Shown: positions 8,083 to 28,336 of the stretch, in pieces
Layout of the letters: each line of letters starts with the position of its first letter
Position numbering within the stretch: position 1 is the first letter of the stretch
Assembly (NCBI GenBank): GCA_002733125.1
Contig: NVUM01000012.1
Location: 62,971-96,171, forward strand
Direction: 5' to 3'
DNA from: Porticoccus sp.
GTDB taxonomy: Bacteria > Pseudomonadota > Gammaproteobacteria > Pseudomonadales > Porticoccaceae
DNA: 33,201 bases
Position numbers and translations under genes: made by a program
The notes under the pieces: model-generated
Database searches by the model: none
Seen by the model: only the letters and a program-made list of their open reading frames with translations
Told to the model about the DNA's origin: nothing

Positions 8083-8158
8083 GGTTGGCGATATCTGTTC
8101 CATGCAAGCGCTTACTTGGTGAGCGATGCAAATTGTTTGGTCATCATCCGGAAACCCT

Positions 8159-9109
8159 ATGAGCACAATTGAAAAAGCAGTTGAAAAGCTGGGGAAGAAG
8201 AGTCAGAAAAACGATTCGGCAGCTCCCACATCAAGCTCGCCTGAAGTGGAGGTTGACCTTGCGTCAGCGCCGGACAGCTGGGAGGGTGCTGATACAGCTT
8301 TTGAACCCCCAGCAACACAGTCTGCAAATAAAAGCATTGTCCTGCCTATCAAAGAGTTGGAAGCAAAGGGCTTTGTCTCTCCGTACAAGCCGAGGAGTTA
8401 TATTGCAGAAGAGTATCGGGCGATTAAGCGCCCATTATTGCAAAACATAGACACCAATATGGCTCAGGGTACGGACCATGCCAACCTGATTATGGTGACC
8501 AGCTCCTTTGAAGGAGAAGGAAAGACGTTTTCAGCCATTAATCTGATGCTGAGTATCTCCATAGAAAAAGATAAAACAGTTCTGTTCGTCGATGCCGATA
8601 TGGCAAAGGCTTCTGCGGGAAGCTTGTTAGGTATTCCCGATGATACGCCAGGACTTATTGATGTTCTGGAAGATGAAAATATTGGCATCGAAGACGTACT
8701 GCTAAACACCGACCTCCCTAATGTGCGCATTATTCCAGTGGGGGTTGCCCATGAGCGATCCACAGAGTTGCTTGCCAGTGAGCGGATGAAGCAATTGATG
8801 GCTGAGTTGTCAGCGCGTTATCCGGATCGGGTTATTATTTTCGATTCCCCACCGTTCCTTCAGACGAGTGAGGCAGCAGTGCTGGCCGACTGCATGGGGC
8901 AAATCGTGTTTGTAGTCGAAGCGGAAAAAGTTTCACCGGATGTCGTGAAACAGGCGGTTAGCCGGATCAGTGACGATAAAATTATCGGGATGCTACTCAA
9001 CAAGGCCGTAAGATACCCTTGGGACAATTATACCCATGGCTATGGTTATGGGTATGGGCACAGTTATGGGGCAGGTCGAACAAGGATGGGTGGCGGCCAG
9101 AATGAATAA
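8159..9109 (+). CDS. XrtA-associated tyrosine autokinase (BY-kinase)
   Basis: Cytoplasmic bacterial tyrosine kinase of 316 residues, separate from its membrane activator as in CapB. Walker A is EGEGKTF (118-124), Walker A' LFVDADM (142-148) and Walker B VIIFDSPP (225-232). The C-terminus has a tyrosine cluster (Tyr286, 291, 295, 297, 299, 303) in a Gly-Tyr repeat, the usual autophosphorylation tail. The frame is open from an ATG at 8126, but the ATG at 8159 (MSTIEKAVEKLGKK) is the family-typical start with GGAAA upstream. The expected activator is the preceding chain-length protein. A likely phosphatase is the C-terminal domain of the protein at 31438-33147. The gene overlaps the next by 8 bases. 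Confidence 0.93.
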   Translation: MSTIEKAVEKLGKKSQKNDSAAPTSSSPEVEVDLASAPDSWEGADTAFEPPATQSANKSIVLPIKELEAKGFVSPYKPRSYIAEEYRAIKRPLLQNIDTNMAQGTDHANLIMVTSSFEGEGKTFSAINLMLSISIEKDKTVLFVDADMAKASAGSLLGIPDDTPGLIDVLEDENIGIEDVLLNTDLPNVRIIPVGVAHERSTELLASERMKQLMAELSARYPDRVIIFDSPPFLQTSEAAVLADCMGQIVFVVEAEKVSPDVVKQAVSRISDDKIIGMLLNKAVRYPWDNYTHGYGYGYGHSYGAGRTRMGGGQNE

Positions 9110-14890: not shown

Positions 14891-16499
14891 ACCGTCATTG
14901 ACCAATGCTCTGCAATTGACGCCCACAGCCAGGGAGCAACTGCTTGTCCCCGCTTTTTTTATTGGTCTGCTGGTAGTATTTTTTGGTCTTTTTTATGAAA
15001 CCACATGGACGATGGTGTCCACCTGGTACCGGGCTGAAACCTATACCCACGGTTTTCTGATCCTGCCTATTGTCGCCTGGCTGATCTGGCGGCGCAGAAC
15101 TGTTCTGCAGAACCTGCGGCCCACTCCCCAATTTTTGGCGCTGATCCCCCTGGCTGCCGCCGGATTTCTCTGGATGCTGGGTAATCTGGTGGATGTTCAG
15201 GTTGTTCAGCAGTTCGCGCTGATCGCCATGGTTGTCGCCGCGTTTCTGACAATTATGGGGGTCGATATCTCCAAAGCACTGGTTTTCCCGCTGGCGTTTC
15301 TATTTTTTGCAGTCCCTATGGGGGAGGAGCTGGTTCCTCCGCTGATGGAATACACTGCAGCGGTAACCGTTGCTTTGGTAAAACTTAGCGGAATCCCCGT
15401 TTATCGCGAGGGCATGTTTATCGCACTGCCCTCCGGAAACTGGTCAGTGGTGGAAGCCTGCAGCGGCATTCGCTATCTGATTGCATCGGTGACCCTGGGA
15501 TGCCTGTTTGCCTATATCAACTACTCAAGCATGAAAAAAAGACTGGCATTCATCCTGGTGGCGACCATTGTGCCGATCATTGCCAACGGACTGCGCGCCT
15601 ACATGATTGTCATGATTGGCCATCTCAGCGGCATGGAGCTGGCAGTAGGCGTTGACCACCTGATTTATGGCTGGGTTTTCTTCGGGCTTGTTATGCTGAT
15701 TTTATTTGTGATTGGCGCAAAATGGAGCGACCCCGATCAGCTACCCGCGCACTCCGGCAGCACGCCTGATACCGACTCTGACGAACGATCACTTTCGCCG
15801 GGCTCGGCTGTTGTTCTGGCGGTTTTCGCCGCATTGGCGGTGGCCGTTATCTGGCCCGCATGGGTCTTTGCATTGAATCAGGGCGGGGAGACCAGGCCGG
15901 CTGCCGTCGAATTTGCACCAGAGCGCCTCGGCGAGTTTACCCTGAGTACCGATATGTTCTGGGACTGGTTTCCCCAGCACCGGGGCAATGATAGTCATAT
16001 AAAGCAGTTTTACGTGTATCAGAATAAGAATGACGCTGAAGGGCAGCCCGCTGTCATGCTCGATATTTCCCAGTATCTGCGACAGGAGCGGGGTGCGGAA
16101 CTGATCAGTGGTCAGAACCGCCTGTTTAATCGCGATGTTCGCGACTGGCGAGTGTTTCCCATGGGTGGGGAATCCGTGGACCTCAATGGTGAAACAACCG
16201 GGGTGTTATCCGCAGTGGTGAAAGGACCCGGTCAAAGTTTGCTGGTTTGGCGGTGGTATCGCATTGGCGACCAATACACGGCCAATGACTATGTGGCCAA
16301 GTTTTATGAATTGAGCGCCCGGTTGCTGGAAAACAGGCGGGATGGCGCCATCATCACCCTGGCGGCACCGATAGAATTCCCGGGCGAGAGCGCACAGATT
16401 GCCGTTGCTGAAGAAATGCTGCAAAGGTTCATCCATCCGATGTTGCCGGAACTGGAAAAATCACTCGACCAGGAATTTTCCGGGGCAAAACAACCGTGA
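14880..16499 (+). CDS. xrtA: Exosortase A fused to EpsI-family domain (XrtA)
   Basis: Polytopic inner-membrane cysteine transpeptidase of 539 residues that cleaves and sorts PEP-CTERM proteins. The exosortase part (about 20-282) has roughly eight membrane helices and the conserved triad: Cys194 in VEACSGIRYL, Arg239 in ANGLRAYMIV, and His260 in GVDHLIYGWVFF. A hydrophilic linker and one more helix (about 310-331) lead to an EpsI-type domain, with FAPERLGEF and WDWFPQHRGND. The two functions, separate genes in some bacteria, are fused here as is common for XrtA. TGGAGGT lies 8 bases before the ATG, deciding the start against an in-frame ATG at 14766. No substrate with a PEP-CTERM tail is encoded in the window. 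Confidence 0.95.
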   Translation: MKSEPSLTNALQLTPTAREQLLVPAFFIGLLVVFFGLFYETTWTMVSTWYRAETYTHGFLILPIVAWLIWRRRTVLQNLRPTPQFLALIPLAAAGFLWMLGNLVDVQVVQQFALIAMVVAAFLTIMGVDISKALVFPLAFLFFAVPMGEELVPPLMEYTAAVTVALVKLSGIPVYREGMFIALPSGNWSVVEACSGIRYLIASVTLGCLFAYINYSSMKKRLAFILVATIVPIIANGLRAYMIVMIGHLSGMELAVGVDHLIYGWVFFGLVMLILFVIGAKWSDPDQLPAHSGSTPDTDSDERSLSPGSAVVLAVFAALAVAVIWPAWVFALNQGGETRPAAVEFAPERLGEFTLSTDMFWDWFPQHRGNDSHIKQFYVYQNKNDAEGQPAVMLDISQYLRQERGAELISGQNRLFNRDVRDWRVFPMGGESVDLNGETTGVLSAVVKGPGQSLLVWRWYRIGDQYTANDYVAKFYELSARLLENRRDGAIITLAAPIEFPGESAQIAVAEEMLQRFIHPMLPELEKSLDQEFSGAKQP

Positions 16500-19588: not shown

Positions 19589-20791
19589 ATGCGTATCCTC
19601 CATATTCTCGACCACTCGATTCCTCTGCAAAGTGGTTATACCTTCCGCACCCGCAATATTCTCAGGCAACAGCGTGCGCTCGGCTGGGACACGGTTCATG
19701 TCACCGGCTTAAAGCATCCCGGTTCTTCGGTGCCGCATGAGGAGGTCGACGGACTTCGTTTTTACCGGACCCCGGCCGGGAGCGGTTTACTGTTACGGTT
19801 GCCGATACTCAACCAGTGGCAGGTGATACAGACACTGGCAAAACGTATTGCCGAGGTCATCGAAACGGAGAAGCCGGATATCCTCCATGCCCACTCCCCG
19901 GCGTTAAATGGTCTGGCAGCATTGCAGGCGAATAAAAAGTTTGGCCTGCCACTGGTTTATGAATGCCGCGCTTTCTGGGAGGACGCCGCCGTAGATCACG
20001 GTACCAGCAGGGAGTTAGGTCTTCGCTACCGGTTGACCCATGGAATGGAAAGCCATGTTTTTCGTCGCGCCGATGCCGTCACCACGATCTGTCAGGGGCT
20101 GCGAGACGATATCGTCCGTCGCGGCATTGAGCCATCGAAGGTTACCGTAATCCCCAATGCGGTAGACATTGAGCACTTCAGTGTGGAGGCCGGGGCGGAC
20201 CCGGAACTGCAGCAGACCCTTGGCTTGCAAGATAAAACGGTGCTGGGTTTCATCGGTTCATTTTATGCCTATGAAGGTATTGTGTTGTTGCTTGAAGCCA
20301 TGCCGGAAATGATTGCCAGTTGCCCCAATTTGTGTCTGTTGCTGGTGGGTGGCGGCCCACAGGAATCACTCATCAAGACAAAGATTGATGAGATGGGTCT
20401 GCAGGATGTGGTGATCATGACAGGCCGGGTTCCCCATACCGATGTGCAGAATTATTACAATCTGGTCGACATCTTCGTCTATCCGCGGCTTAGTATGCGG
20501 CTGACAGATCTGGTAACGCCCTTGAAGCCACTGGAAGCCATGGCTCAGGGTAAGTTAGTGATCGCTTCGGATGTAGGCGGTCACCGGGAGCTTATTCGAG
20601 AAGGCGAAAATGGCTGCCTGTTTACCGCTGGCAGTGCTACATCATTGGCTCGCACCGTTATCGGATTGCTCGATGACCGGGAGCGATGGCCTGCCATGCG
20701 CAGCAATGGTCGCCGTTACGTGGAGGAAGAGCGCAACTGGGCCAACAGCGTCAGCCGATACCGGCAGGTTTATGGCGATCTTTTAGGATGA
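19589..20791 (+). CDS. XrtA-associated glycosyltransferase 3 (TIGR04063-like, GT4)
   Basis: GT-B glycosyltransferase of 400 residues. The N-terminus LHILDHSIPLQSGYTFRTR is the hallmark of the exosortase A-associated Daro_2409-type family. Other motifs are the acceptor-side YECRAFWEDAAVDHG, VIPNAVDIEHF, LGFIGSFYAYEG and the donor-site RLSMRLTDLVTPLKPLEAMA. It overlaps the next gene by 4 bases (ATGA), so expression is coupled. Substrate unknown. Confidence 0.93.
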   Translation: MRILHILDHSIPLQSGYTFRTRNILRQQRALGWDTVHVTGLKHPGSSVPHEEVDGLRFYRTPAGSGLLLRLPILNQWQVIQTLAKRIAEVIETEKPDILHAHSPALNGLAALQANKKFGLPLVYECRAFWEDAAVDHGTSRELGLRYRLTHGMESHVFRRADAVTTICQGLRDDIVRRGIEPSKVTVIPNAVDIEHFSVEAGADPELQQTLGLQDKTVLGFIGSFYAYEGIVLLLEAMPEMIASCPNLCLLLVGGGPQESLIKTKIDEMGLQDVVIMTGRVPHTDVQNYYNLVDIFVYPRLSMRLTDLVTPLKPLEAMAQGKLVIASDVGGHRELIREGENGCLFTAGSATSLARTVIGLLDDRERWPAMRSNGRRYVEEERNWANSVSRYRQVYGDLLG

Positions 20792-21891
20792 CGTCTCAGC
20801 CAGGAAAAAAATTGCGTCTGGGGGTGGTTGGTCCTCTGCCCCCTCCGGCAGGTGGCATGGCCACCCAGACCAGCCAGCTGGTCAAGTTGTTCAGAGAAGA
20901 AGGCGTAGAGGTTTGCCTGGTGCAGACCAATCGGCCCTACCGTCCAAAGTCAGTGGAAAAACTCAGGGGCGTTCGCTCACTGTTCCGTCTGGTACCCTAT
21001 TTGGTGGCCGTCTGGAAAATGGCTGGCAAAGTCGACGTCATCCACCTGATGGCCAATTCCGGTTGGTCATGGCAGTTGTTTTCCACGCCCGTGGTCTGGC
21101 TGGCATGGTTGAAAAATACTCCGGTTATCGTGAATTACCGGGGGGGCGAAGCAGGCAGCTATTTCGAACAGTCTTTTCGGTGGATCAGGCCAACCCTGAA
21201 TCGAGCCACGCAAATTGTCGTGCCCTCCGGTTATCTGCACGAGGTGTTTGCCAAGTTTGGCGTTGAGACCACGGTGATCCCCAATATCATAAATCTGGAA
21301 AGGTTCAGGCCAGCCGCCATGGTTGATGATGCGCCGGCCACAAAGGGGTTCAGGGTGATTATTACCCGCAATCTCGAAGCCATTTATGGCATTGCAACAG
21401 CAATCAATGCGTTGGCTATCGTGCGCCGGGAGATCCCGGCAATAGAACTGGCCATTGCCGGCTCCGGACCGCAGCTGGCCGAACTGATGGCCCTGACCGA
21501 CCAGCTGGGTCTACAGGCGCATGTTCAGTTTGTCGGTCGGCTGGATGCTCAGCAAATCGTGGATTTTTACCAGTCCGCCGACCTGGTTCTGAATCCGACC
21601 ACCGTAGACAATATGCCGAACTCCGTGCTGGAAGCGCTCGCCTGTGGTGTGCCGGTGGTGACGACGGATGTGGGCGGTATTCCCTATATCGTGTCGCAGG
21701 AAAAAACCGCCCTGATGGTACCTGCCGGTGACGCAGCAGCCATGGCGGCGCAGATAATCCGCCTGTATAGGGAAGAGGAGACGCGGCAAAGGTTGATTGA
21801 CAATGGCCTGGCTGCAGTCAGGCTCTACGCATGGCCAGTGGTAAAAGAACAATGGCTGACACTCTATCGATCGCTGAGGTCAGGGCTATGA
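20788..21891 (+). CDS. Glycosyltransferase family 4 protein
   Basis: GT-B enzyme of 367 residues. The N-terminus GVVGPLPPPAGGMATQTSQL gives the glycine-rich acceptor loop, VIPNIINLERF the interdomain segment, and PTTVDNMPNSVLEALACGVPVVTTDVGG the GT4 donor motif. Start at 20788 is fixed by the ATGA overlap with the preceding gene; the open frame upstream from 20686 lies within that gene. It is an additional glycosyltransferase beyond the three usual exosortase-associated ones, so it may reflect the local sugar structure. Its 3' end enters the 14-bp repeat array that separates it from the CapK-like gene. Confidence 0.9.
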   Translation: MTSQPGKKLRLGVVGPLPPPAGGMATQTSQLVKLFREEGVEVCLVQTNRPYRPKSVEKLRGVRSLFRLVPYLVAVWKMAGKVDVIHLMANSGWSWQLFSTPVVWLAWLKNTPVIVNYRGGEAGSYFEQSFRWIRPTLNRATQIVVPSGYLHEVFAKFGVETTVIPNIINLERFRPAAMVDDAPATKGFRVIITRNLEAIYGIATAINALAIVRREIPAIELAIAGSGPQLAELMALTDQLGLQAHVQFVGRLDAQQIVDFYQSADLVLNPTTVDNMPNSVLEALACGVPVVTTDVGGIPYIVSQEKTALMVPAGDAAAMAAQIIRLYREEETRQRLIDNGLAAVRLYAWPVVKEQWLTLYRSLRSGL

Positions 21892-21930
21892 GGTCAGGGC
21901 TATGAGGTTAGAGCAATGAGGTCAGAGCAA
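21874..21930 (+). repeat. 14-bp tandem repeat at a stop/start junction
   Basis: About four units of a 14-base repeat, each close to CTATGAGGTCAGGG: a shortened first copy near 21874-21885, then copies starting at 21886, 21900 and 21914, ending at CAATGAG at 21928. Every unit carries ATGA (overlapping start and stop) and a GAGGT Shine-Dalgarno-like core. The first full unit holds the stop of the glycosyltransferase (21889-21891); the last ATG (21930) starts the CapK-like gene. ATGs at 21902 and 21916 are out of frame with that gene, and the one at 21888 is in frame but stops after five codons. Confidence 0.85.
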
Positions 21931-23276
21931 TGAGTTGGTATACGCAACTGGTCTCCGGCGTTTTGTTCCCGCTGCACGAGCGGCTGAAACATCACACCAC
22001 GGTGCGTGTTCGTCGCGATATGGAGCGAACCCAGTGGCTGACTCCCGCGGAACTGGAGCAGTTGCAGTTGCAGCGGCTGCGGGAATTTCTCGTTGATATC
22101 GGCCGACATGTGCCCTATTACCGGCAACTGTTTGCTGCGTTGGACATCAAGCCGGATCAAATAACCTCACTCAGTGGGTTACAGCAGTTGCCGCTCATGG
22201 GAAAACCTGAAATCCGCGCCAGCAGTGAGAGTATGAAAGCTGAAAATGCGGTGGGACTGTCGCGCTTCAATACCGGTGGTTCCAGTGGTGAACCGCTAAT
22301 ATTTTTTATTGGCAGTGAGCGTGTTAGCCATGATGTGGCTGCCAAATGGCGGGCTACCCGTTGGTGGAACGTGGATATTGGTGACCCGGAGATTGTGGTC
22401 TGGGGGTCACCAATAGAGCTGGGTACCCAGGACCGGGTGCGGCAGTTGCGCGATACGTTGTTCAGAACCCGCCTGTTGCCGGCCTTCGAAATGTCAAAAA
22501 CCAAACTGGATGATTTTGTGGCCACTATCCGTAAGGTCAAACCGGCGATGTTATTCGGTTACCCTTCGGCACTGGCACATATTGCCGGCCATGCCGAAGA
22601 CAGCGGGGTCGATCTTTCGGGGCTCGGTATCCGGGTGGCCTTTGTCACCTCCGAGCGGCTTTACGATCACCAGCGGGAGAGAATAGAACGGATGTTTGGT
22701 TGTCCCGTCGCCAACGGCTATGGTGGCCGGGATGCCGGGTTTATTGCTCACCAGTGTCCAGAGGGCAATATGCACATCACGGTCGAAGACATTATTGTCG
22801 AGATCGTGGATGGTGATGGTCGGGTATTGCCGCCGGGCGAGTCTGGAGAAATTGTCGTGACCCATATGGCCACTCGCGACTTCCCCTTTGTTCGCTATCG
22901 TACCGGTGACATTGGTGTGCTCAGCGACTCACCCTGTGGTTGTGGGCGTGGACTGCCGGTGATGCAGGAAATTCAGGGGCGCTCGACAGATTTCCTGATG
23001 GCCCAGGATGGAACCCTGCTGCACGGCCTCGCCCTGATTTATATCCTGCGCGACCTGCCCGGTATTGCCTCGTTCAAAATCACGCAGGAGTCACTCGACC
23101 TGACGCGGGTAGAGATTGTCCGCGGGGATGATTATGTCATCGCCAATGAGCAGGCAATTAGCGATGTTTTTAAAAAAAGGCTGGGGCAGGCGGTCACGGT
23201 TGAATTTGAATACTGTGACGAGATCAGGCCGGAAAAATCAGGCAAATTCCGTTATGTGGTCAGCAAAGTCACCTGA
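21930..23276 (+). CDS. CapK/PaaK-like adenylate-forming enzyme
   Basis: Protein of 448 residues of the phenylacetate-CoA ligase-like group often found in capsule loci (CapK). The ATP-binding loop NTGGSSGEPLIF lies near residues 112-123. The central FVTSERLYDHQRERIE and NGYGGRDAG and the hinge region RTGDIG are typical of ANL enzymes, followed by a cysteine-containing CGCGRGLP. It probably activates a carboxylic acid as an adenylate for transfer onto the polysaccharide; the acid is unknown. It occupies a place where exosortase A clusters often have a different acyl-CoA ligase. The ATG at 21930 is supported by GAGGT about 10 bases upstream within the repeat array. Confidence 0.85.
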   Translation: MSWYTQLVSGVLFPLHERLKHHTTVRVRRDMERTQWLTPAELEQLQLQRLREFLVDIGRHVPYYRQLFAALDIKPDQITSLSGLQQLPLMGKPEIRASSESMKAENAVGLSRFNTGGSSGEPLIFFIGSERVSHDVAAKWRATRWWNVDIGDPEIVVWGSPIELGTQDRVRQLRDTLFRTRLLPAFEMSKTKLDDFVATIRKVKPAMLFGYPSALAHIAGHAEDSGVDLSGLGIRVAFVTSERLYDHQRERIERMFGCPVANGYGGRDAGFIAHQCPEGNMHITVEDIIVEIVDGDGRVLPPGESGEIVVTHMATRDFPFVRYRTGDIGVLSDSPCGCGRGLPVMQEIQGRSTDFLMAQDGTLLHGLALIYILRDLPGIASFKITQESLDLTRVEIVRGDDYVIANEQAISDVFKKRLGQAVTVEFEYCDEIRPEKSGKFRYVVSKVT

Positions 23277-25727: not shown

Positions 25728-25788
25728 AACCCGGTATAGCAATGCTTTGTCCAAGATGGACATATTGGGTATGGAGACCAACCGGGTT
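25728..25788 (+). promoter_or_regulatory. Nested inverted repeats in the leader of the di-heme protein gene
   Basis: An 8-bp perfect inverted repeat (AACCCGGT 25728-25735, ACCGGGTT 25781-25788) encloses a second hairpin (TGTCC 25748-25752, GGACA 25758-25762). The right arm ends 10 bases before the preferred ATG at 25799. No T-run follows, so it resembles a structured mRNA leader more than a terminator. Confidence 0.45.
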
Positions 25789-25798
25789 GACTAACCTT

Positions 25799-28336
25799 AT
25801 GAAACGCCAAATATTTTCAGAAGCCCCAGTCCAATGGCTACTTTTTTTTCTGTCACTCCTGTTGGTTAATTTCGAGACCCAAGCCGGCAGTTCAACCGTT
25901 GTGACGCCTGAGCGGATGCCAACCGTGTCAATGCCAGTCTATGCGGGCCTTCCCCCGACAAGACTGGCTGAGGTGAACTGGGAAGAATTCAAGCGAATAA
26001 AACGGGGTGTGCAACCCGGTGAGGATGAACCGTCGGAGTCAGCGGCAGAGCCAAAGGTCGAGTCAGAACCTGCCGAAAAAACAGTATCGTCAAACAAGCC
26101 ATTAGCGCAAAAACCATTAGTGCAAAAGTCAGCAGCGCGACTGACATATCCCGTGGTCTACACCCGCGTCCCTCGCACCCACGGGGAGCACACAGTCACA
26201 TTGAGCAGCGGCGATTACACCAGCGACAACTGGGATTATCTAGATGCGCTACCCGAAGTCTCGCGACAGTTTCATAGCTTCAATGCACCGGGGCAGTTGG
26301 TGTTGCTGAACGCCGATGGCACAGAAAAGATCATCTACGACTGCATGAACGCCGAACGGCCCTGTGTGCCGTTCGATGCTATGCCCTCGCTTGACGGAAC
26401 AAAGATTGCCTTCTCTGTCTACTCGGCAGATGGGCTGAAACCGCCGTGGCCGGAGAACAGGGGCTACCCAAACCGGCAGCTAAGCGGGTCAGGCTCAGAA
26501 GCTCGGATTTACATTTATGACATCGCCGCTGAGTCTCTGACCGCGTGGCCCCACAACCAGGGCAATAAAGACCTCTCTCCGGTATGGTTGCCCAACGGCA
26601 AGATGCTGTTTGGCTCCACCCGCAACGGCTTTTATGCGCCGTATATGGATCGCATTGGCACGTCGAACTCCCCGGAACCCCGGTTATTTATTGCTGACGT
26701 GGATGGCACCAACGTTGCGGACATTTCCCCCCATGAGGTGACGGCGGCGCTGCACCCGTACCTGTTGAACAGCGGTCGGGTGGCCTACAGCTCCCACTGG
26801 CTCAGCCATAATCTGGCCTATGGCTCCACTAACGGCAGCATTAACTGGCCCGGCACCACCAGTAATATGTGGTCAATCATGGATATGGATTACCGTGGTG
26901 GGGATATGACAGCCCTGCTCGGTGCCCACAAGAGCCGATTAACTGGCTCGAACCCCCGCAGCAACACCATGAAGGCCATGCACTTTTTGGGTCAGCGGGC
27001 CAACAATGATATTTGCACGGTGAACTACTATCGGGCCAATAACCTCGGTTTGGGCGATATGATTTGCTGGCCGCCGGAAAGCCACGGTGTTGAAGGCCCG
27101 GCCCCCGGCTTTGTGCCGAGCGGCCATTACAGTGCAGCAGTGTGGTCTACCTCTGAGGACGCTGCATCCCGCAAAGACGCCAGCGGTCGTTATCTGGGTA
27201 AAGTGGGCTGGCCAGAAGGCACACCAGACAATCAACTGCTGTTGTCCGTAGGCAAGGGTTTTTGCACCCAGGTCGCTACTGGGGTGCCCAGTACGCCGGA
27301 TAAGATTGGTGACGACATCGGCTGTGATGTGGGGCTGTATAAAACCACCGTGATACCCAGCCAGTCCCCCGATGATCTGGCCCTGATCGTTGATCATCCG
27401 GAGTGGCACGAGTTCAGTGCCCGTGTGGTGGTAGCAAGAGACATCCCCACACCCGCACTGGTCAACACCGATGACGGCACCTGTCAGATTGCCAGCTCTG
27501 ATGCCGGATCGACGGACGCGCTCAACTACAAAGGCTATGTCTTCAACGAGCAATACAAAACTATCGATAATAACGGGTCGCTAATGGAAGCCGTTCCCCA
27601 CAGTGAACTGGCGGCTATTCGTTTCTATGAAATCATCCCGAACACCACCCGCAGCCGCAACTGGGACAACACTATTGGCAACCGGGTAAAACTGCTGGGT
27701 GATGTGCCTCTGCTGGCAGACAAGTCATTCAAGGCTGAACTGCCCTGCGAAACGCCCTACATTATGGCGGGGGTGGACTCTGACGGTCGGATCATCAAGC
27801 GCGATCAGGTGCCCCAGTCATTGCGGCAGGGCGAGAAGCGCGTCTGTATGGGTTGTCACCTGCATGCCAAAGAAGGCCGCCCCTACGAGCAATCACTGGC
27901 GTTTTCAGCCCCGGCATTCGATCTGACCAAAGCTATGCCGGTGCCCACTTACACCAAGGACATCAAGCCGATCTTTGAGGCGAAGTGCACAAGCTGCCAT
28001 GCGGTCGGCGGTGATGTGCCGCTGTACGATTATCAAAATCTGGTTTGGGATTTTTCCCAGAAAGCCCTGCCAGAAAACCTGAAAGTGCAGATGACCAGCT
28101 CCTCCAATGAGACGCGAAAATACGGCTTACAGCGGCCTATGATTAGCAAATACGTCAACAACATGTATGCCCGCGAGAGCCTGCTGTACTGGAAGGCCGC
28201 CAACAAACGCACTGATGGTCGCACCGATGACCTGTATGCCGACGATATTGATTTTGGCGCCGATCATCCGGTAGACCTGACTCCATCGGAAGTCGATCTG
28301 ATTGGCAGCTGGCTGGACAGCGGGGCGGCAGAGTAG
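25799..28336 (+). CDS. Secreted di-heme cytochrome c/beta-propeller protein, HzsA-related
   Basis: Protein of 845 residues with a signal peptide (hydrophobic core LLFFLSLLL, likely cleavage after TQA). A low-complexity Pro/Glu/Ser-rich linker with a short KPLAQ/KPLVQ repeat lies at about 80-115. PD40/beta-propeller-like strands follow (for example SPVWLPNGKMLFGSTRNG), then a domain resembling the middle part of hydrazine synthase subunit alpha. Two c-type heme sites are CMGCH (683-687) and CTSCH (730-734), the latter after KPIFEAK as in many C-terminal cytochrome domains. It is therefore periplasmic or extracellular and redox-active, but the reaction is unknown; the family occurs in many bacteria that do not make hydrazine. 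The ATG at 25799 is preferred over 25742 because the signal peptide starts there. Confidence 0.8.
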   Translation: MKRQIFSEAPVQWLLFFLSLLLVNFETQAGSSTVVTPERMPTVSMPVYAGLPPTRLAEVNWEEFKRIKRGVQPGEDEPSESAAEPKVESEPAEKTVSSNKPLAQKPLVQKSAARLTYPVVYTRVPRTHGEHTVTLSSGDYTSDNWDYLDALPEVSRQFHSFNAPGQLVLLNADGTEKIIYDCMNAERPCVPFDAMPSLDGTKIAFSVYSADGLKPPWPENRGYPNRQLSGSGSEARIYIYDIAAESLTAWPHNQGNKDLSPVWLPNGKMLFGSTRNGFYAPYMDRIGTSNSPEPRLFIADVDGTNVADISPHEVTAALHPYLLNSGRVAYSSHWLSHNLAYGSTNGSINWPGTTSNMWSIMDMDYRGGDMTALLGAHKSRLTGSNPRSNTMKAMHFLGQRANNDICTVNYYRANNLGLGDMICWPPESHGVEGPAPGFVPSGHYSAAVWSTSEDAASRKDASGRYLGKVGWPEGTPDNQLLLSVGKGFCTQVATGVPSTPDKIGDDIGCDVGLYKTTVIPSQSPDDLALIVDHPEWHEFSARVVVARDIPTPALVNTDDGTCQIASSDAGSTDALNYKGYVFNEQYKTIDNNGSLMEAVPHSELAAIRFYEIIPNTTRSRNWDNTIGNRVKLLGDVPLLADKSFKAELPCETPYIMAGVDSDGRIIKRDQVPQSLRQGEKRVCMGCHLHAKEGRPYEQSLAFSAPAFDLTKAMPVPTYTKDIKPIFEAKCTSCHAVGGDVPLYDYQNLVWDFSQKALPENLKVQMTSSSNETRKYGLQRPMISKYVNNMYARESLLYWKAANKRTDGRTDDLYADDIDFGADHPVDLTPSEVDLIGSWLDSGAAE

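Follow-up and report, generated by a model that had tools for sequence, protein, structure and literature searches.

Tandem 14-base start–stop units between a glycosyltransferase gene and a CapK-like gene of Porticoccus sp.: a putative relay of minimal cistrons

The stretch of DNA analysed (33,201 nucleotides from contig NVUM01000012.1 of Porticoccus sp., hereafter denoted the window) contains an array of 14-base repeats at a gene junction within an XrtA/PEP-CTERM exopolysaccharide operon (Table 1). Genes of this operon that pass NCBIfam cut-offs encode a FemAB-like protein, exosortase A, the TIGR03088 and TIGR04063 glycosyltransferases, the XrtA amidotransferase and a putative O-glycosylation ligase. 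The glycosyltransferase (GT) that precedes the array has GT4-type Pfam domains and passes no NCBIfam cut-off; its ORF call spans 20686–21891, and the in-frame ATG at 20788, which overlaps the stop of the preceding gene as ATGA, is a likelier start than that of the ORF call at 20686. The CapK-like enzyme encoded after the array matches PaaK/F390-type NCBIfam models, in all cases below their cut-offs. Plain −4 overlaps devoid of repeats are apparently present at two other junctions of the cluster (ATGA at 20788–20791 and GTGA at 16496–16499, both with predicted starts). Also within the polysaccharide cluster is an 864-aa ORF (25742–28336) with a weak match to the hydrazine synthase alpha domain. 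Elsewhere in the window, the ORF at 8126–9109 (AAA_31 domain) ends in a Tyr/Gly-rich tail (9029–9109), with ATGGGT-like hexamer repeats at 9036–9058; this tail presumably resembles the Tyr cluster found in bacterial tyrosine kinases.

Table 1. Coordinates in the window of the 14-base array, its mini-ORFs and the two flanking genes
Feature	Position	Strand	Remarks
Glycosyltransferase (GT4 type), upstream of the array	20788–21891	+	Stop TGA at 21889–21891
Repeat unit 1	21875–21888	+	TGAGGTCAGGGCTA; the last 14 GT coding bases before the stop; Shine–Dalgarno-like GAGGT at 21876–21880
Mini-ORF 1, MRSGL*	21888–21905	+	5 codons; start and GT stop overlap in ATGA
Repeat unit 2	21889–21902	+	TGAGGTCAGGGCTA, identical to unit 1; opens with the GT stop; GAGGT at 21890–21894
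Mini-ORF 2, MRLEQ*	21902–21919	+	5 codons
Repeat unit 3	21903–21916	+	TGAGGTTAGAGCAA; GAGGT at 21904–21908
Mini-ORF 3, MRSEQ*	21916–21933	+	5 codons; stop and CapK-like start overlap in ATGA
Repeat unit 4	21917–21930	+	TGAGGTCAGAGCAA; GAGGT at 21918–21922; last base is the start of the CapK-like gene
CapK/PaaK-like adenylate-forming enzyme (448 aa)	21930–23276	+	Pfam AMP-binding; last cistron of the relay
Partial fifth unit, TGAG	21931–21934	+	Follows unit 4

Tandem Repeats Finder places the array at 21875–21934 (period 14, 4.3 copies, 91% matches, score 85) and ranks it first among the 14 rows reported for the window. In 100 dinucleotide shuffles of the window, the score stayed below this value throughout (maximum 68, median of maxima 39), which rules out chance or artefact as its source. 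The about four near-identical 14-base units described in the initial annotation are thus borne out, with the exact count of four taken from one draft genome. An assembly error is unlikely for the repeat as such, because two-unit forms occur in three separate genomes of relatives. The four units have the common form TGAGGT(C/T)AG(G/A)GC(T/A)A. The array is located at the GT/CapK-like junction as annotated, but not exactly between the stop and the start, since unit 1 forms part of the coding end of the GT gene. Similarly, each unit does carry the Shine–Dalgarno-like core attributed to it (four GAGGT cores within 47 nt), whilst the start and the stop are not separate elements of the unit; rather, they overlap as a four-base ATGA at each joint between units. 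In unit 4, GAGG is separated by 8 nt from the ATG of the CapK-like gene, and the spacing from GAGG to the next ATG is the same in every unit; 8 nt is a normal Shine–Dalgarno distance. The 16S rRNA was not found in the incomplete assembly of this organism when sought for an anti-Shine–Dalgarno check, and the usual anti-Shine–Dalgarno sequence was assumed for the host.

Between the GT stop and the start of the CapK-like gene lie 38 nt (21892–21929), and the upstream ATGs of the array are positioned at 21888, 21902 and 21916. Because 14 is 2 modulo 3, the ATG of every unit is in frame with the TGA of the next unit, giving a five-codon ORF. The GT always meets a TGA where unit 2 begins, and the CapK-like gene always starts from the last ATGA; the chain of mini-ORFs is closed at every copy number and therefore connects the end of the GT gene to the start of CapK whilst leaving both proteins intact. 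The ATGs had been annotated as decoys that move between frames, which the sequence does not support: each is closed by the next unit whatever the copy number, such that the array constitutes a stop–start relay. Folding of one-, two- and four-unit junctions gave accessibilities without a clear trend by unit number, and RNA structure was dropped as the function of the array on these grounds. A DNA search of the organism's own genome (incomplete, 86.76%) with the 901-base junction returned a single place only, whilst a three-ATGA pattern returned the window array and one match with unequal gaps; no other array with three or more ATGAGG-type starts was found in this incomplete genome, which argues against a dispersed repeat family.

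The same junction was read in relatives. The genus sample comprised 17 genomes, including that of the window; the enzyme was matched at E <= 1e-60 in nine of these, and eight junctions were readable, the match in the ninth (L014) lacking the start of the gene. The five closest loci share approximately 93–97% DNA identity over the GT and CapK genes and differ in their unit counts, with four in the window, two each in L003, L004 and L006, and one in L005 (one genome per species). The initial annotation had anticipated that gain or loss of a unit would change the stop-to-start distance by 14 bases, and had called for a comparison of repeat number across related genomes; the counts of 4, 2, 2, 2 and 1 agree with the former and, in answer to the latter, reveal a copy number that is not constant. 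Three loci with 75–80% protein identity (L007, L008 and L009) have one unit each, that is, a direct ATGA overlap, with just 156 bases available upstream in L008 and N bases present in L009. Outside the genus, the array was found in none of four readable loci (L010–L013, 69 to 43% identity). In one of these, L011 (G029), the CapK-like frame continues upstream through 500 or more codons with no stop (open frame of 1101 aa), as if the GT and the CapK-like enzyme were fused.

As the more distant genus members have one direct ATGA overlap, the simplest reading of these sequences is that the direct overlap would be the ancestral state, which was later expanded. Trees of the GT and of the CapK-like enzyme from the five closest loci conflict with each other. 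A direct −4 ATGA overlap with an upstream Shine–Dalgarno core is seen in L005 and L007; in the window the connection runs via the mini-ORFs. The single unit of L005 has TGAG at both of its ends, 14 nt apart (CTGAGGTCAGAGCTATGAG). Both ORFs are intact at one, two and four units, such that a change in copy number causes neither the frame loss nor the shut-off that characterise a phase-variable locus, although a graded effect is possible. Since no copy number breaks a reading frame, on/off switching of CapK is unlikely.

We consider, with a probability of roughly 0.6, that the array arose by tandem duplication of a translation-initiation region and forms a closed relay of five-codon ORFs which hands ribosomes from the GT to CapK. 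The starting point would have been a plain −4 ATGA overlap of the GT and the CapK-like gene, expanded by duplication of the unit, presumably through replication slippage; the seed may have been the TGAG that the Shine–Dalgarno core and the start context have in common at a distance of 14 nt, as seen in L005. Ribosomes leaving the GT would pass along the three mini-ORFs to CapK by termination–reinitiation. A bare gap of 38 nt would be expected to weaken coupling, whereas a chain of −4 steps might preserve it; coupling would then be retained at any copy number, with CapK output altered by degree at most and not switched on or off. A function of the relay at the window locus is putative, and the fixation of a given copy number is probably close to neutral.

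Comparable arrays occur elsewhere. A scan of the GTDB species genomes with the pattern ATGAGGTN7ATGAGGTN7ATGA returned at least 115 stretches, of which 78 of those listed are 7-base repeats and were kept as a contrast set; this and the other pattern searches hold the ATGAGGT or ATGAGG register fixed and miss other layouts. Among the matches listed, an ORF of 100 codons or more begins at the last ATG in 20 of the 37 stretches that are not 7-base repeats, compared with 7 of the 78 that are (Fisher p = 3e-7); when the stretch must also have an upstream ORF of 100 codons or more whose end lies in the array or up to 45 nt before it, the corresponding figures among the matches listed are 17/37 and 2/78. 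Terrabacter, Acidimicrobiales, Chloroflexi, Oligoflexales and Hyphomicrobiales appear among the titles listed (80 of 115), and arrays of the same kind thus occur in several phyla. Two Terrabacter species have one array junction in common, with two units before the start in one and four in the other, and their downstream proteins are 86.5% identical. With regard to the contrast set, 7-base ATGAGGT repeats are found in many draft genomes, and Photobacterium kishitanii (L061) is among those listed.

The genes downstream of these arrays are unrelated by Pfam; they include a SpoIIE-type phosphatase, PF03602 (which we take to be RsmD), an enoyl-CoA hydratase, a D-Ala-D-Ala ligase, YaiI/YqxD and an ABC ATPase, and one period-11 array precedes an HTH/S24 protein. 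The SpoIIE-type gene of G084, which is preceded by four ATGs, has a match in 7 of the 41 genomes of its genus, G084 included; L336, its nearest relative, has an apparent direct GTGA overlap, with the starts uncertain because the alignments of the relatives begin at residue 5 or later. That genes as different as those of the RsmD-type methyltransferase, the D-Ala-D-Ala ligase, the enoyl-CoA hydratase and the ABC ATPase follow such arrays makes a special role in surface variation less likely. This bears on the proposal that the window array is a contingency locus, in which copy number is selected to vary among cells and thereby diversifies CapK-dependent modification. The variation of copy number across species and the polysaccharide operon that hosts the array would suit such a locus, but reading frames stay unbroken at every copy number and similar arrays precede housekeeping-type genes (rsmD and ddl, for example); we therefore regard it as improbable.

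An allelic series is located at the rsmD junction of 13 species of one genus, where the upstream gene has approximately 410–420 codons. Three of these species have a direct overlap, six have one 14-base unit, one has a 20-base unit, and two, three and four units are each found in one species, giving from one to five starts in a row. The inserted bases number 0, 14, 20, 28, 42 or 56, and the stop–start path is closed in all 13; the rsmD start codon is TTG in L328 and GTG in L334. In the ten species with an insert, the base before the upstream TGA is invariably A, though rsmD no longer needs an A at this position. Invariance among the ten is otherwise rare in the same gene (3 of 131 comparable four-fold columns and none of the 27 other Ala columns), the pairwise four-fold difference averages 0.52 (range 0.25–0.61), and A is the third base (GCA) in 61 of 540 Ala codons, the ten included. 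In the nine 14-base first units of this genus, the two G bases of ATGAGG are kept in 9/9 and 8/9, whereas later positions are kept in no more than 7/9.

The wider rsmD family provides a background for these figures. Matches were obtained in 152 of 159 genomes; 147 junctions were read which, with 12 further species of the series genus, make 159, leaving out two near contig ends, two unlisted and one 75-base stretch. In 154 of the 159 there is an upstream ORF with 130 codons or more; these comprise 99 direct overlaps, 15 relays by the frame rule and 40 others. The base before TGA is A in 8 of 45 family junctions that lack a 4-base overlap, and the 99 direct overlaps have A there in 45 cases and G in 52. 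The series genus supplies ten of the 15 relays. Of the five remaining, three are offset by 37 to 103 nt and could have arisen by chance. Where the stop precedes the start by 10 nt or more, nine of the 24 junctions are not relays; one non-relay, L344, has an ATGA and a 14-base spacing, but its rsmD starts as ATGC and the closing overlap is absent.

The simplest reading of the invariant A, given the high synonymous divergence around it, is that the start of the first mini-ORF is in use, and the pattern at rsmD suggests the same for its Shine–Dalgarno core. The series represents one clade and may comprise few independent events; if the duplications are recent, the conserved A could be a leftover of an earlier direct overlap. 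This test of the start base concerns rsmD in another lineage, divergence at the window locus being too low for a test of this type. The same observation bears on the possibility that the array acts as a landing site for ribosomes, its extra Shine–Dalgarno cores raising CapK translation with no need for the mini-ORFs. The density of GAGGT cores in the window would fit such a role; however, it requires no start base in the upstream mini-ORF, and yet this base is conserved at rsmD, which makes a mere landing array very improbable.

The period of the arrays was analysed with a free-gap pattern, ATGAGGN{5,11}ATGAGGN{5,11}ATGA, applied to 398 phylum, 58 near, 369 class and 390 order genomes (overlapping sets, G000–G1124); for the set of 390, the matches listed are the first places per genome, and of the places without a locus 16 stretches were read, selected mainly for the equal gaps of their listed match. 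Equal-period arrays with units at least 78% identical account for 66 of the 148 distinct matches read, and arrays built from shorter repeats were left out of the period counts. An array was scored as a junction array where an upstream ORF of at least 80 codons ends inside it or no more than 60 nt before it, and an ORF of at least 100 codons lies downstream. This was the case for 7/10 arrays at period 14 (window included), 1/5 at 11, 2/19 at 12, 0/4 at 13, 2/15 at 15 and 0/1 at 17. The identity limit of 0.78 was chosen so that the array of the window (0.79) counts; at 0.80, the figure for period 14 is 6/8. The upstream stop coincides with the first ATGA in five of the seven period-14 junction arrays; in L278 it is 14 nt before the first ATGA, and in L197 the only frame found has 128 codons and ends within the array. 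Period 14 accounts for 7 of 11 junction arrays of periods 12–15 (binomial p = 0.0076), or 6 of 10 without the window (p = 0.02), whilst the periods that are 2 modulo 3 overall account for 8 of 12 (p = 0.085), or 7 of 11 without the window (p = 0.14), which is not significant. There is thus a modest preference for period 14 at junctions, on which the probability given above for the relay does not depend.

A looser look added two period-14 arrays with the downstream start 7 nt later, a period-13 array that opens a 368-codon ORF, another of period 13 (L187) that sits between genes with a start 25 nt on, and a period-17 array that opens 97 codons. Viral contigs, used as a control for period, yielded 3, 4 and 20 stretches at periods 14, 13 and 15, respectively, too small a number for a comparison; the period-14 array of L148 follows an upstream ORF end and opens just 60 codons, L153 (period 13) has both neighbours, and the period-15 stretches look like coding repeats. 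Long ATGAGG-type arrays were also observed at period 11 (L311 in G1076, with 11 ATGs) and period 13 (L316 in G824, with nine). In L312 (G826), 16 ATGs recur at period 15 (ATGAGGGAATGAACC type), 15 of which meet an in-frame stop after three codons, and a 638-codon ORF begins 54 nt past the last ATG. L263 (G542) has a period-12 array (ATGAGGGAGTAA) with six ATGs, in which five units end in TAA and the stop adjoins the next start with no overlap.

These counts inform on a further possibility, namely that slippage alone accounts for the array, the duplication being silent and tolerated, the mini-ORFs not usefully translated and the last Shine–Dalgarno core alone serving CapK. Several observations are consistent with such a neutral origin: the genes downstream of other arrays are unrelated, L005 has its TGAG in common to the Shine–Dalgarno core and the start at the distance of one unit, junction arrays of periods 12 and 15 also exist, with in-frame N-terminal repeats, and the preference for phase is weak. 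Set against these are the start base of the first mini-ORF at rsmD, conserved 10/10 despite the synonymous divergence, the GG retained next to variable spacers in the rsmD first units, and the failure of any of the four period-13 arrays to qualify as a junction array, though L187 does lie between genes on the looser look. Weighing both sides, we consider neutral slippage unlikely, and less probable than a relay of translated mini-ORFs.

The array shares features with several known systems. The unit of the mycobacterial interspersed repetitive units (MIRUs) is tens of bases long and larger than 14 bp. In the description of MIRUs in PMC12548453 (after Supply et al. 1997), the repeated element contains a small ORF coupled to the neighbouring gene at −4 nt, is apparently mobile and has, upon insertion, little effect on the coupled neighbour. 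The mini-ORFs of the window likewise overlap the neighbouring ORFs at −4 spacing, but their unit is local within the incomplete genome, being neither dispersed nor seen to be mobile, and derives most simply from its own start region; with 14 bp it is also set apart by its length. In bicistronic designs (BCDs), a short leader ORF holds the Shine–Dalgarno core of the next gene, and its stop overlaps the next start. The predicted mini-ORFs of the window have this architecture, each holding the next core and ending in an overlapping stop–start; however, BCDs are engineered single leaders, whereas the window array is natural, tandemly amplified and variable in number. PMC5995908 and PMC12548453 present BCD leaders as engineered elements of synthetic biology.

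With regard to −4 overlaps in general, PMC12548453 describes coupling as strongest at −4 to +3 nt in most studies and lower at larger gaps, mentions one study in which raising the spacing from −4 to +25 nt was without effect, and states that Shine–Dalgarno sequences aid coupling. The window junction has the ATGA and a Shine–Dalgarno core for the downstream gene, as in such pairs, and is putatively coupled; it differs in the three extra minimal cistrons that intervene. The TAACTGA direct repeats of Beggiatoaceae are depicted in PMC4679880 as 7-bp units upstream of starts, with stops in all frames, little Shine–Dalgarno character and a genome-wide spread. They resemble the window array as short tandem repeats of variable number just before start codons, but contain no ATG and form no start–stop relay. 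No description of tandemly copied start–stop units was found in the openly licensed literature searched. Coupling by short ORFs is already known, whilst its tandem form with variable copy number would be natural and is apparently new.

The general interest of the array derives from its recurrence elsewhere and from the rsmD series. It is conceivable, though on balance doubtful, that minimal-cistron arrays are a recurrent and evolvable operon element of many phyla, in which 14-base copying supplies the units, phase is selected, the mini-ORFs are translated and copy number grades coupling. The rsmD junctions and, on a smaller scale, the window locus provide a naturally occurring set of alleles with between one and five consecutive −4 overlaps, on which models of coupling may be tested; by our own predictions, reinitiation would entail a loss with each added cistron, whereas unfolding would result in little change. 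The series also shows how the junction of two overlapping genes can grow in length with no damage to either protein.
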